The translations under genes were made by a program, and so were the position numbers. DNA of 52,351 bases from Kushneria aurantia DSM 21353 (GTDB lineage: Bacteria > Pseudomonadota > Gammaproteobacteria > Pseudomonadales > Halomonadaceae). The DNA lies in assembly GCF_000382245.1 (NCBI RefSeq), contig NZ_KB907887.1:1-52351 (forward strand), in the 5' to 3' direction. Below the pieces are notes generated by a model. That model saw nothing but the letters and a program-made list of their open reading frames with translations, did not search any database and was not told where the DNA came from. The first letter of the stretch is position 1; each line of letters begins with the position of its first letter. Below are positions 4,379 to 6,697 of the stretch, piece by piece.

Positions 4379-5341
4379 GTGTTGATGGCAATTGCGGCCG
4401 TAATAGCCGGCCTTGTGGTACTCACCTGGAGCGCCGACCGTTTCGTTGAGGGGGCAGCCGCCACGGCACGCCACCTCGGCATGCCGCCGCTTTCGGTGGG
4501 TATTGTGATCATCGGCTTCGGCACCTCGGCGCCGGAGCTGACGGTCTCGGTGCTGTCTGCCGCCGAGGGTAATCCGGGGCTGGCGCTGGGTAACGCCTAC
4601 GGTTCCAACATCGCCAATATCGCGCTGGTAACCGGCCTGGTGGCACTGATCGGCCCGCTGGCGGTACACCGCCGTGTGATACGTCGCGAGCTGCCGCTGC
4701 TGGGCGTGGCCACGCTGGCGTCGCTGTGGTGCCTGTGGGACGGTACCGTCTCGCGCCTGGATGGCGCCCTGCTGCTCCTGTTGCTGGTGCTGTCACTGGG
4801 TTACAGCCTGCTGCGCTCCGGCAGCCAGAGCAGCGAAGAGGCGGTCCAGGCCGAGGAAGCAGCCGGTCAGATGTCACTCCAGCGTGGCCTCGTCTGGACC
4901 CTGATCGGTCTGGCTCTGTTGGTCGCCAGTTCACGTCTGCTGGTGTGGGGGGCCGTCTATATCGCCAGCGCGCTGGGCGTCAGCGATCTGGTGATCGGTC
5001 TGACGGTCGTGGCGATCGGCACCTCCCTGCCGGAGCTGGCCTCCTCCATCTCGGCGGTACGCAAAAACCAGCACGACATGGTGTTGGGCAACATGGTGGG
5101 CTCCAACTTCTTCAACACCCTGGCGGTGGTGGGGCTGGCCGGCGTGGTGCACCCCATCAGCGTCGGCTCGGAGGTACTGATTCGCGATTGGCCGATCATG
5201 GCAGCGCTGACGCTGCTGCTGTTCGTATTCTGCCTGAGCGGCCGGCGCATCAACCGCCCGGAGGGTGGCGTACTGCTGACAATTTTTATCGCCTACACCG
5301 GCTGGCTGGTGTATAGCGTGATCGGAGCTGCCAGCGCCTGA
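4379..5341 (+). CDS. yrbG: K+-dependent Na+/Ca2+ exchanger-like protein YrbG
   Basis: A 320-residue integral membrane protein of the Ca2+/cation antiporter superfamily. Two inverted alpha repeats are clear: GFGTSAPELTVSV followed by LGNAYGSNIANI, and AIGTSLPELASS followed by LGNMVGSNFFNT, each with the conserved PE and GN..GSN ion-coordinating motifs. About ten membrane segments flank a short hydrophilic loop (SGSQSSEEAVQAEEA) between the halves. GTG 4379, TTG 4382 and ATG 4385 are in frame; AAAGGAG ends at 4369, so GTG has the best spacing. E. coli YrbG is of similar length and its physiological ion is uncertain. Confidence 0.92.
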   Translation: MLMAIAAVIAGLVVLTWSADRFVEGAAATARHLGMPPLSVGIVIIGFGTSAPELTVSVLSAAEGNPGLALGNAYGSNIANIALVTGLVALIGPLAVHRRVIRRELPLLGVATLASLWCLWDGTVSRLDGALLLLLLVLSLGYSLLRSGSQSSEEAVQAEEAAGQMSLQRGLVWTLIGLALLVASSRLLVWGAVYIASALGVSDLVIGLTVVAIGTSLPELASSISAVRKNQHDMVLGNMVGSNFFNTLAVVGLAGVVHPISVGSEVLIRDWPIMAALTLLLFVFCLSGRRINRPEGGVLLTIFIAYTGWLVYSVIGAASA

Positions 5342-5495
5342 CGCGCACCCCGGTGTTTAAAGCACAAAAACCGAGGCGCCTGAAACCGTAACTCACGACG
5401 GGCGGCCTCGAGGCTCAAAAGTCCCGGCTAGCGTACATATCCGACAGTCAACCGATGTGGAGCAACGGGTGTCGATAGGCAGACACGCTGAAACA

Positions 5496-5513
5496 ATGGC
5501 AGAAAATTGCCAT
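5496..5513 (-). terminator. Hairpin downstream of the tRNA-Glu/Gly operon
   Basis: ATGGCA and TGCCAT form a perfect 6-bp stem with a 6-base loop. On the minus strand it lies past the last 77-bp repeat. It has only a weak T tract, so it may be a processing or termination hairpin. Confidence 0.35.
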
Positions 5514-5531
5514 CAGAAGAGGGAGAAAAAC

Positions 5532-5608
5532 TGGAGCGGGAAAGGAGATCGACCGGGCTGGCGCCCCAGCTCACGACCCTTGGCAATCCTGGCGTGCCAC
5601 TAAAGATA
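5532..5608 (-). repeat. 77-bp tRNA-Gly 3'-end repeat, unit 1
   Basis: The unit begins with TGGAGCGGGAAAGGAGAT, identical to the last 18 nt (CCA included) of the adjacent tRNA-Gly gene, and then continues with a spacer shared with the units at 5817 and 5894. The period is exactly 77 bp up to the tRNA-Gly gene at 5609. In sense orientation it lies directly downstream of tRNA-Gly. The spacer contains a GCTGG/CCAGC hairpin and a CTCACGACCC stretch resembling the tRNA variable and T-arm region. It lacks the 5' acceptor strand and cannot be a functional tRNA. Confidence 0.85.
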
Positions 5609-5683
5609 TGGAGCGGGAAAGGAGATTCGAACTCCCGACCCTCGCCTTGGCAAGGCGATGCTCTACCGCTGAGCTATTCCCGC
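5609..5683 (-). tRNA. tRNA-Gly (anticodon GCC), copy 1
   Basis: A 75-nt minus-strand cloverleaf: acceptor GCGGGAA/TTCCCGC, anticodon loop with GCC, T-loop TTCGAAT and an encoded CCA. It reads GGC/GGU. It differs from the second copy by one D-loop base (sense CGG against TGG). It follows tRNA-Glu by 25 nt and is followed directly by a 77-bp repeat unit. Confidence 0.96.
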
Positions 5684-5708
5684 AAACGACTGATCGATAA
5701 AACTGAGG

Positions 5709-5784
5709 TGGCGTCCCGTAGGGGGTTCGAACCCCTGTTACCGCCGTGAAAGGGCGGTGTCCTGGACCACTAGACGAACGGGAC
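5709..5784 (-). tRNA. tRNA-Glu (anticodon TTC), copy 1
   Basis: A 76-nt minus-strand tRNA: acceptor GTCCCGT/ACGGGAC, stem ACCGCC/GGCGGT around loop CTTTCAC with anticodon TTC, T-loop TTCGAAC, and an encoded CCA. It is identical to the copy at 6070-6145. It belongs to the second Glu-Gly block of the operon. Confidence 0.96.
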
Positions 5785-5816
5785 GCAACTATCGGTATTG
5801 CTATGCTTTTAAAACA

Positions 5817-5893
5817 TGGCGCGGGAAAGGAGATGGATTGGACCGGCACACCGGCTCACGACCCTCGACAACCCTGCCATTCCACTAAAAGTA
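5817..5893 (-). repeat. 77-bp tRNA-Gly 3'-end repeat, unit 2
   Basis: The unit starts TGGCGCGGGAAAGGAGAT, which differs from the tRNA-Gly 3' end by one base (C for A at the discriminator). Its spacer is the most diverged of the three. The hairpin is kept: CCGG pairs with CCGG where the other units have CTGG with CCAG, a T-A to C-G compensatory change. Confidence 0.85.
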
Positions 5894-5970
5894 TGGCGCG
5901 GGAAAGGAGATCGACCGGGCTGGCGCTCCAGCTCACGACCCTCGACAATCCTGCCATATCACTAAAAGCA
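5894..5970 (-). repeat. 77-bp tRNA-Gly 3'-end repeat, unit 3
   Basis: The unit starts TGGCGCGGGAAAGGAGAT and ends exactly where the second tRNA-Gly gene begins (5971). Its spacer is close to unit 1. Units 2 and 3 are in perfect tandem with the tRNA 3' end, giving starts at 5817, 5894 and 5971. Confidence 0.85.
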
Positions 5971-6045
5971 TGGAGCGGGAAAGGAGATTCGAACTCCCGA
6001 CCCTCGCCTTGGCAAGGCGATGCTCTACCACTGAGCTATTCCCGC
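5971..6045 (-). tRNA. tRNA-Gly (anticodon GCC), copy 2
   Basis: A 75-nt tRNA-Gly(GCC) on the minus strand with encoded CCA and the same fold as copy 1, apart from one D-loop base. It lies 24 nt after tRNA-Glu and directly before two 77-bp repeats carrying its 3' end. Confidence 0.96.
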
Positions 6046-6069
6046 AACCGATTGATCGATAAAACGAAG

Positions 6070-6145
6070 TGGCGTCCCGTAGGGGGTTCGAACCCCTGTT
6101 ACCGCCGTGAAAGGGCGGTGTCCTGGACCACTAGACGAACGGGAC
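6070..6145 (-). tRNA. tRNA-Glu (anticodon TTC), copy 2
   Basis: First gene of the tRNA operon, 76 nt, identical to the copy at 5709-5784. The promoter lies directly upstream at 6176-6204. The whole Glu-Gly-repeat block has been duplicated, with two repeats in this block and one in the next. Confidence 0.96.
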
Positions 6146-6175
6146 GTTTCGGCCTCGTCTCACCGAGTGGCGCGC

Positions 6176-6204
6176 ATATTACCCGCCCCTCCCGGGGGTG
6201 TCAA
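6176..6204 (-). promoter_or_regulatory. Sigma-70 promoter of the tRNA-Glu/Gly operon
   Basis: On the minus strand TTGACA (6204-6199) and TAATAT (6181-6176) are separated by exactly 17 bp, a near-consensus promoter about 30 nt upstream of the first tRNA-Glu. The bases after the -10 (GCGCGCC) form a GC-rich discriminator, a feature linked to stringent (ppGpp/DksA) control of stable RNA promoters. Confidence 0.88.
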
Positions 6205-6298
6205 GGCACCCCTTTTGATCGACAGGCGGCGACCCCATATCAGCAACTGTTAACCTATTCCGGGACCGGACCGACTCGCTGCAAAGAGGAGTTTTTAC

Positions 6299-6697
6299 AT
6301 GGACAAGGTACACAAAAGCGATCAGGAGTGGCGCGAGCAGCTTACCGATGAGCAGTACCGCGTCACCCGTCAGGCGGGCACCGAGCGCCCCTATACCGGC
6401 GACTATCAGGTGGAGCCGGTGCAGGGTATTTACCACTGCGTCTGCTGCGGCGCACCGCTTTTTGAAAACGAGCACAAATTCGAGTCGCACTGCGGCTGGC
6501 CCAGCTTCGATCGCCCACTGGCCGATGCATCGCTGGAGGAACATCAGGACGACAGCCATGGCATGCGCCGCATCGAGGTGACCTGCCGGCGCTGTGATGC
6601 CCATCTGGGCCATGTCTTCCCCGACGGCCCGCGCGACACCACCGGCCAGCGCTACTGCATCAACTCGGTGGCGATCACCTTCCATCAGGGCGAGTAA
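6299..6697 (+). CDS. msrB: Peptide-methionine (R)-S-oxide reductase MsrB
   Basis: This enzyme reduces the R epimer of methionine sulfoxide in proteins using thioredoxin. The 132-residue protein has the full SelR domain: zinc-binding CxxC pairs at Cys47/Cys50 and Cys96/Cys99, the SHCGWPSF motif around residue 65, and the catalytic Cys120 in RYCINSVA. AAAGAGGA sits about 10 nt upstream of the ATG. There is no signal peptide, so it is cytoplasmic. It is divergent from the tRNA operon. Confidence 0.97.
   Translation: MDKVHKSDQEWREQLTDEQYRVTRQAGTERPYTGDYQVEPVQGIYHCVCCGAPLFENEHKFESHCGWPSFDRPLADASLEEHQDDSHGMRRIEVTCRRCDAHLGHVFPDGPRDTTGQRYCINSVAITFHQGE

Follow-up and report, generated by a model that had tools for sequence, protein, structure and literature searches.

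Short rtT-like repeats with a tRNA-Gly tail and a compact hairpin module in tRNA arrays of the Halomonadaceae

Introduction

The closest described relatives of the repeats considered here are the RtT units (Rfam RF00391, rttR) of the Escherichia coli tyrT/tyrV loci, which stand in tandem directly behind the tRNA, measure 178 bp and each close with the 3' end of the host tRNA, copied exactly and including CCA. They read AAGGTTCGA (in one variant AAGGTTCGG), then an insert of about 80 nt, then ATCCTTCCCCCACCACCA, and are thus made of the T stem and tail of tRNA-Tyr, with the T-stem/T-loop relic broken by a hairpin-rich insert; four copies score as RtT and the locus scores 133 to 138 bits. One report presents RtT in E. 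coli as a released RNA and places rtT-like elements near Asn and Lys tRNAs in Actinobacillus (PMC4986893), and another has such elements among BIME repeats (PMC2965389). In the literature searched we met no described case other than E. coli rtT.

The type case of the small dispersed repeats of 20 bp is cyanobacterial. Some bacterial repeats of this length might be mobile, according to PMC2884548, and we liken them to our module by description alone. The GC clusters of yeast mitochondria, as described in PMC4478555, are very short GC-rich hairpin cassettes, sometimes merged, and present or absent at homologous sites.

We analysed a window of 52,351 nt of Kushneria aurantia DSM 21353 (contig NZ_KB907887.1, positions 1 to 52,351), in which a first-pass annotation had pointed to three 77-bp units carrying a tRNA-Gly 3' end and a conserved hairpin. 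These units form a shorter cousin of E. coli rtT, itself little understood, newly seen in the Halomonadaceae. In the literature searched, a search outside which most subscription papers lay, we found no description of the unit.

Results and Discussion

The Kushneria tRNA array

The array is read on the minus strand in the order Glu, Gly, unit 2, unit 3, Glu, Gly, unit 1. Its first gene is tRNA-Glu(TTC) (6070..6145), followed by tRNA-Gly(GCC) (5971..6045), which hosts unit 2 (5894..5970) directly at its 3' side and, in tandem behind it, unit 3 (5817..5893). The latter lies 32 bp ahead of the second copy of tRNA-Glu(TTC) (5709..5784), and a second tRNA-Gly(GCC) (5609..5683) is directly followed by unit 1 (5532..5608) at the array end. 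Each unit is exactly 77 bp long, as had been proposed from the unit starts at 5532, 5817 and 5894, and the reading of the tails as the last 18 nt of tRNA-Gly with CCA was equally correct: the tail is identical in unit 1 (5532..5549) and one base off in unit 2 (5894..5911) and unit 3 (5817..5834), where GCTCCA has become GCGCCA. A fourth unit of the same genome lies behind another tRNA-Gly and ahead of tRNA-Cys.

A scan of positions 5330-6300 found a single promoter-like site, TTGACA-17-TAATAT (6176..6204, minus strand), just ahead of the first tRNA-Glu, and no terminator-like site, so that units 2 and 3 are probably part of the tRNA precursor.

Every unit has the same layout, namely a spacer, the tRNA variable loop and 5' strand of the T stem, a 17-nt module that replaces T54 of the T loop, the letters TCGAT (units 1 and 2) or TCCAT (unit 3), and the tRNA 3' end with CCA. 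In the alignment, GGGTCGTGAG of the unit faces GGGTCGGGAG of tRNA-Gly; since the match covers the variable loop and the 5' strand of the T stem as well, the hairpin occupies the position of the T loop. The modules, all on the minus strand, are CTGGGGCGCCAGCCCGG in unit 1 (5553..5569), CTGGAGCGCCAGCCCGG in unit 2 (5915..5931) and CCGGTGTGCCGGTCCAA in unit 3 (5838..5854). The hairpin change noticed in the first-pass annotation, from GCTGG/CCAGC in two units to CCGG/CCGG in the third, is real, and in unit 3 three pairs (9-18, 14-23 and 20-24 in the numbering given below) are altered together. Neither ARAGORN nor Rfam calls a tRNA on the units; the T loop is interrupted, and the acceptor stem and intact T loop of a functional tRNA are not found together.

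Comparison with RtT

The likeness to the E. coli tyrT repeats, which had been suggested from the Kushneria sequence, is a close one: the rtT units, too, consist of tRNA 3' parts, their T loop holds a structured insert, and their tail copies that of the host exactly. The two inserts are nevertheless unrelated, that of RtT having about 80 nt and several hairpins, against 17 nt for the Halomonadaceae module, and the units differ in length (178 bp versus about 77) and in hosts (Tyr, Gln and Ser for RtT; Gly(GCC), Gly(CCC) and Asp for the module units). Moreover, RtT has an upstream strand complementary to its tail, visible by eye and in the Rfam structure line, whereas the Halomonadaceae unit has none beyond chance. 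The RtT covariance model gave no match up to E 5 in positions 5330-6250 of the window, none up to E 1 in five related loci (L014, L082, L177, L141, L125) and none in the genome to which the window belongs, and a blastn search of E. coli genomes gave no match.

RtT itself matched 50 of the 274 class genomes sampled, 18 of them above the cut-off. Among 30 fetched RtT loci (L184-L213), 26 have a tRNA, and in 22 of these a unit ends in the 17-nt end of that very tRNA within three changes (Tyr 4, Gln 6, Ser 12). Across the Gammaproteobacteria, the upstream strand and tail of the RtT units resemble, by eye, a minihelix of the host tRNA.

Tails and tRNA origin

The tails of the Halomonadaceae-type units also follow their hosts. 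Units behind tRNA-Gly(GCC) end in TTTCCCGCTCCA or close to it, those behind tRNA-Gly(CCC) (Chromohalobacter) in GTTGCCCGCTCCA, and some of those behind tRNA-Asp (Saccharospirillum) in GTCCGTTCCGCCA, others being changed. The T stems of the Gly(GCC) hosts are GCGAG/CTCG, GGGAG/CTCC or GAGAG/CTCT, and at the variable pair the T-stem base of the unit and its tail base are C-G in 94, G-C in 40, A-T in 9, T-C in 70 and of other kinds in 20 of 233 units. Selection on the T stem was considered and dropped in view of the 70 T-C mismatches and the 20 others, and we therefore limit the claim to units following the host tRNA.

Six units from five loci (L118, L087 twice, L169, L381, L014), 88 to 104 nt long, are near-whole copies of tRNA-Gly with the module at T54. 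Over the 53 to 54 alignment columns that precede the module on its 5' side, a stretch that takes in the anticodon arm, 38 to 41 of their letters are identical to tRNA-Gly. Most units, those of the window among them, keep only the 3' side of the tRNA: the likeness of the 5' part exceeds a z of 3 in 33 of 256 units and reaches 1.3 to 1.8 in the window. This analysis and that of the second modules below used 267 modules from 288 units, 21 units having no anchored module. The description of the unit as tRNA-sized thus fits the six near-whole copies, but not a fixed length, as units vary across the fetched loci, mostly between 74 and 89 nt.

Such copies, together with the decayed 5' parts of the others, are what plain pseudogenes under no constraint would leave behind, and plain decay may indeed explain the 5' part of the units. 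It is unlikely for the module, which is kept and compensated while the rest decays, and which was present in all 126 places recovered by a search blind to it (see below). As an account of the whole unit we hold unconstrained decay to be very improbable.

A partner for the tail in the spacer was another candidate. The string TGG.AGCGG, facing CCGCTCCA, was seen by eye in many spacers; it did no better than shuffled spacers and was rejected (183 units with a recognisable hairpin and distinct spacers; mean z 0.02, p at most 0.05 in 3.8% of them). The same null result weighs on the idea of a decoy or insulator for the processing or folding of tRNAs, in which the extra CCA-ended tail would compete for 3' nucleases or block mispairing of neighbouring tRNAs. 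The tail does keep its CCA and tracks the host tRNA, and for 186 of 288 units the tRNA that follows within the fetched stretch is Glu or Cys. With no tail partner in the spacer beyond chance, and with a mere 3-4 nt spacer in place of the unit in some relatives, we judge this role improbable.

Distribution among relatives

A check of the family genomes for similar units, which had been proposed with the original observation, was run without reference to the module. Two exact 12-nt tRNA-Gly ends lie 58-88 bp apart at 126 places in 74 of 161 family genomes, and the module is present, by eye in strings of up to 80 letters, in 126 of 126, two genomes (G810, G406) having a hairpin loop of three bases. 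The reversed pattern had no match among the genomes listed, which excludes chance for the tail repeats. The search misses longer units, such as one of 91 nt in another genome of the same genus (G009). At least one exact module followed by TCGA occurs in 150 of 250 family genomes and in 14 of 24 genera, MITE-like copies (see below) being counted in.

In the order, a core pattern matched 33 of 390 genomes, some by chance, and a reversed control pattern also gives a few matches. Relatives linked to a tRNA occur in 4 of the 47 families sampled (f1, f6, f38, f43), behind tRNA-Gly(GCC), tRNA-Gly(CCC) and tRNA-Asp. A scan of genome contigs with the core pattern gave at least 119 stretches, and among the 80 listed matches, from which genera were named, those adjacent to a tRNA belong to Chromohalobacter, Halomonas, Vreelandella, Salinicola, Kushneria, Modicisalibacter and Litchfieldella, and further to Billgrantia, Halovibrio, Alcanivorax, Alloalcanivorax, Thalassolituus and Saccharospirillum. 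The module also stands on a contig of Kushneria indalinina. Nine loci among the matches listed are chance matches with no tRNA and were set aside, save that one (Kribbella) stays within the 117 cores. In a class sample, 3 of 369 genomes held the module plus TCGA: that of the window, one family member and one with a place devoid of tRNA.

The fetched loci were partly chosen by the module pattern, and the share of their tRNAs with units is therefore no frequency. Among their 288 units, 27 carry two modules and 12 have none detected, at least four of these 12 holding a variant. Two loci (L011, L262) contain 44-nt deletion derivatives of the unit, in which the module is gone and the tail decayed. 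In Thalassolituus (L077), two more copies of GTCCCGCTCCA, with a longer unrelated repeat ahead and no module, lie between tRNA-Gly and the module-bearing unit.

The presence of the unit differs within a genus, and its boundary can be clean: the Gly-Glu spacer is ATGC in two genomes (G004, G008) and a unit plus ATGC in a third (G006). Such a precise boundary, together with a tail whose length (about 18 nt) and position are those of a tRNA attachment site, would suit footprints of integrative elements that target the 3' end of tRNA-Gly. The units, however, stand in tandem with no cargo, the exact core pattern had 0 matches in the viral contigs (viral_contigs), phage matches were weak (best E 0.2), and the sole strong plasmid match was a 1.8-Mb Halomonas record. 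On these searches we consider attachment-site footprints very improbable here.

Structure and covariation of the module

The module, numbered from C8 to R24, has the consensus C Y G G N N Y G C C R G Y C C R R. It can fold into a 4-bp hairpin, CYGG-NNYG-CCRG, followed by a tail, YCCRR, whose bases can pair with those of the loop. Loop and tail would be joined by pairs 14-23 and 15-22, which cross the hairpin, and pair 20-24 lies outside the hairpin and crosses 14-23. In 183 unique units anchored on the hairpin alone, pair 9-18 is TA in 142 and CG in 41; pair 14-23 is CG in 161, TA in 15, GC in 2, a wobble in 2 and other in 3; pair 15-22 is GC in 180 and other or wobble in 3; and pair 20-24 is CG in 112, TA in 61, AT in 2, a wobble in 1 and other in 7. 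The A20-T24 type may reflect a one-base deletion and was given no weight. Among all column pairs at least four apart, the strongest in corrected mutual information are 9-18, 20-24, 11-16 and 14-23 (125 unique cores, effective number 21), of which 9-18 and 11-16 belong to the anchor.

For the whole structure in 51 distinct modules, 97.2% of cells are standard pairs, versus 86.4% after shuffling, the cells changed on both sides number 56 versus 18, and the covariation score is 0.425 versus 0.199; none of 500 shuffles reached any of the three values. Slid versions of the structure have at most 44% standard cells. Weaker measures on the same modules separate less, the number of pairs with a change on both sides being reached by 88 of 500 shuffles and that of further pair types by 41. 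For the pairs 14-23, 15-22 and 20-24 alone, 94.1% of cells are standard versus 78.3% in shuffles (0 of 500 as high), and the same two weaker counts were reached by 396 and 10 of 500 shuffles, respectively. Hence the compensatory hairpin change first noticed in the window is well supported across relatives, and two module pairs besides the hairpin covary. These counts are of cells and not of independent events.

Sister units give a view of single changes. In 71 disjoint sister pairs, changes on both sides of 20-24 number 15, of which 14 lead from one standard pair to another, and changes on a single side number 4; the corresponding counts are 5 and 3 for 14-23 and 6 and 0 for 9-18. For mismatched control columns they range from 2 to 6 on both sides and from 7 to 18 on a single side. 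Even where their spacers are identical or nearly so, sister units can differ by the entire module (L005, L107, L016/L037; those of L005 are in tandem, with identical spacers). Modules thus seem to be exchanged as blocks, and the compensatory events are fewer than the counts of cells. Where a unit carries two modules, the second could be parsed in 18 of 24 cases; these have C-G in 9, G-C in 6 and no pair in 3 at 14-23, and C-G in 10, T-A in 2 and others in 6 at 20-24.

This covariation is among the points in favour of a functional processed small RNA like rtT, in which the unit would be cut from the tRNA precursor with the module as its structured core and act in trans, in the stringent response or as a sponge. 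Units 2 and 3 do lie between tRNAs of one array with a single promoter-like site, and E. coli RtT is reported to be a released RNA (PMC4986893). Furthermore, of 37 loci between tRNA-Gly and tRNA-Cys, nine, selected because their spacers begin alike, retain the whole unit, spacer included, and this may hint at a function that goes beyond being tolerated. Against such an RNA, the three variable pairs include fewer G-U pairs than mismatches (3 versus 10 of 549 cells), which is unusual for a freely drifting RNA helix, the presence of the unit varies within a genus, and the same module sits within MITE-like repeats. A T-run hairpin, seen by eye between tRNA and core in four loci (L177, L143, L096, L153), counts weakly against it as well; a terminator scan of two of them, L177 and L096, did not report these hairpins on that strand and leaves our estimate where it was. 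A released regulatory RNA from the units is possible on this sequence evidence, and the trans-acting RNA as a full account seems to us rather unlikely.

The module outside tRNA operons

The genome of the window holds 17 exact places with the module plus TCGA. Three are tRNA units. Each of the other 14 was read and proved to belong to a MITE-like repeat, about 160 bp long, whose inverted ends are GGGAAACGCTGCATAAAT and ATTTATTCAGCGTTTCC (L241:1450-1609; also L214, L223, L232, L238, L243, L247, L251, L252, L255 and L465-L468). This repeat matched 63 of 121 family genomes and 0 of 9 other genomes of the same genus; the query itself held the module, which biases the matches toward filled copies. 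When 30 fetched loci were aligned, 19 were filled and 11 lacked exactly 16 nt between GGTAC and TCGAA, that is, the empty copies read GGTAC-TCGAA and the filled ones GGTAC-TGGTGCGCCAGCCCGG-TCGAA (a regular expression finds 10 of the 11 empty copies and misses L303). The module of the filled copies is followed by TCG, or by TCA in L315. Most of our module searches required TCG behind the module; this alignment did not. No filled and empty allele was seen at one and the same MITE site, and the insertion into the MITE may be one old event that spread with MITE subfamilies.

In 69 regions picked by hand from the lists of module-plus-TCGA places, 90 module places divide into 44 tRNA units, 25 copies of the first MITE and 21 others. 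By eye, most of these others are tRNA units that have diverged or are cut off at an edge, variant forms of the first MITE, or copies of a second and a third repeat. The second dispersed repeat reads GGCGGTR-module-TCGA (L404, L406, L422, L428, L458, L461, L462); in the third (L411, L433) the module likewise stands before TCGA. Over 69 distinct GGYR-module-TCR contexts, 9-18 is TA in 64 and CG in 5, 20-24 CG in 66 and TA in 3, and 14-23 CG in 67 and TG in 2. That the module also occurs away from tRNA operons, in dispersed repeats, speaks at least as strongly for a DNA-borne repeat as for a released RNA or a decoy. Y1 transposase, the enzyme expected of a REP/RAYT-type system, had a match in 42 of 121 family genomes (36 over the cut-off) and is absent from the genome of the window, despite its 17 module places; no mobilising enzyme for the module was found.

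We tentatively propose, as a possibility well short of a probable one, that the module of 16-17 nt is a portable DNA cassette among the smallest known. It would enter new sites immediately 5' of TCG(A), by insertion or copying of the whole block, in T-loop-like positions both of tRNA-derived repeats and of at least two MITE-like families. It would also stack in tandem, and its hairpin and loop-tail pairing would be kept since copying or recognition acts on the single-stranded fold. In this view rtT would fill the same niche as a larger analogue. The yeast GC clusters differ in being mitochondrial, mostly longer (GC42, with an 18-nt form reported) and flanked by AG or ACT repeats (PMC4478555), whereas the module is bacterial, has 16-17 nt, stands before TCG and shows covariation of loop and tail.

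Origin and maintenance of the units

The reading that we favour, and hold to be somewhat more likely than not, treats the units as tail repeats of the rtT type, built on a decayed tRNA-Gly and bearing a portable hairpin cassette, whose gain and loss would come about through recombination between tails. A copy of tRNA-Gly would mostly decay on its 5' side, leaving the variable loop, the 5' strand of the T stem and the CCA 3' end, with a 17-nt cassette able to fold alone in place of T54. Slippage or gene conversion between tails about 77 bp apart would let the units expand, contract and stay host-like, and the cassette would move as a block. Units co-transcribed with the tRNAs of an operon may be tolerated, or kept for a mild benefit, because the independent fold of the cassette would prevent a second working T arm. 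Most likely, then, any part that this repeat plays in the folding or processing of tRNA precursors is no more than secondary, and the unit is not a dedicated regulatory RNA.

Conclusion

Our results suggest that tRNA-tail repeats with a structured T-loop insert are a recurrent kind in the Gammaproteobacteria and that their tails keep to the sequence of the host tRNA. Two inserts, unrelated to each other, were seen, one behind Gly(GCC), Gly(CCC) and Asp tRNAs and the other behind Tyr, Gln and Ser tRNAs. Comparison can thereby put the origin, spread and function of these repeats to the test. Should block-wise movement of the 16-nt module prove real, one would have to ask how so small a sequence can be mobile, and filled copies, empty copies and compensatory changes would be available in a single system.
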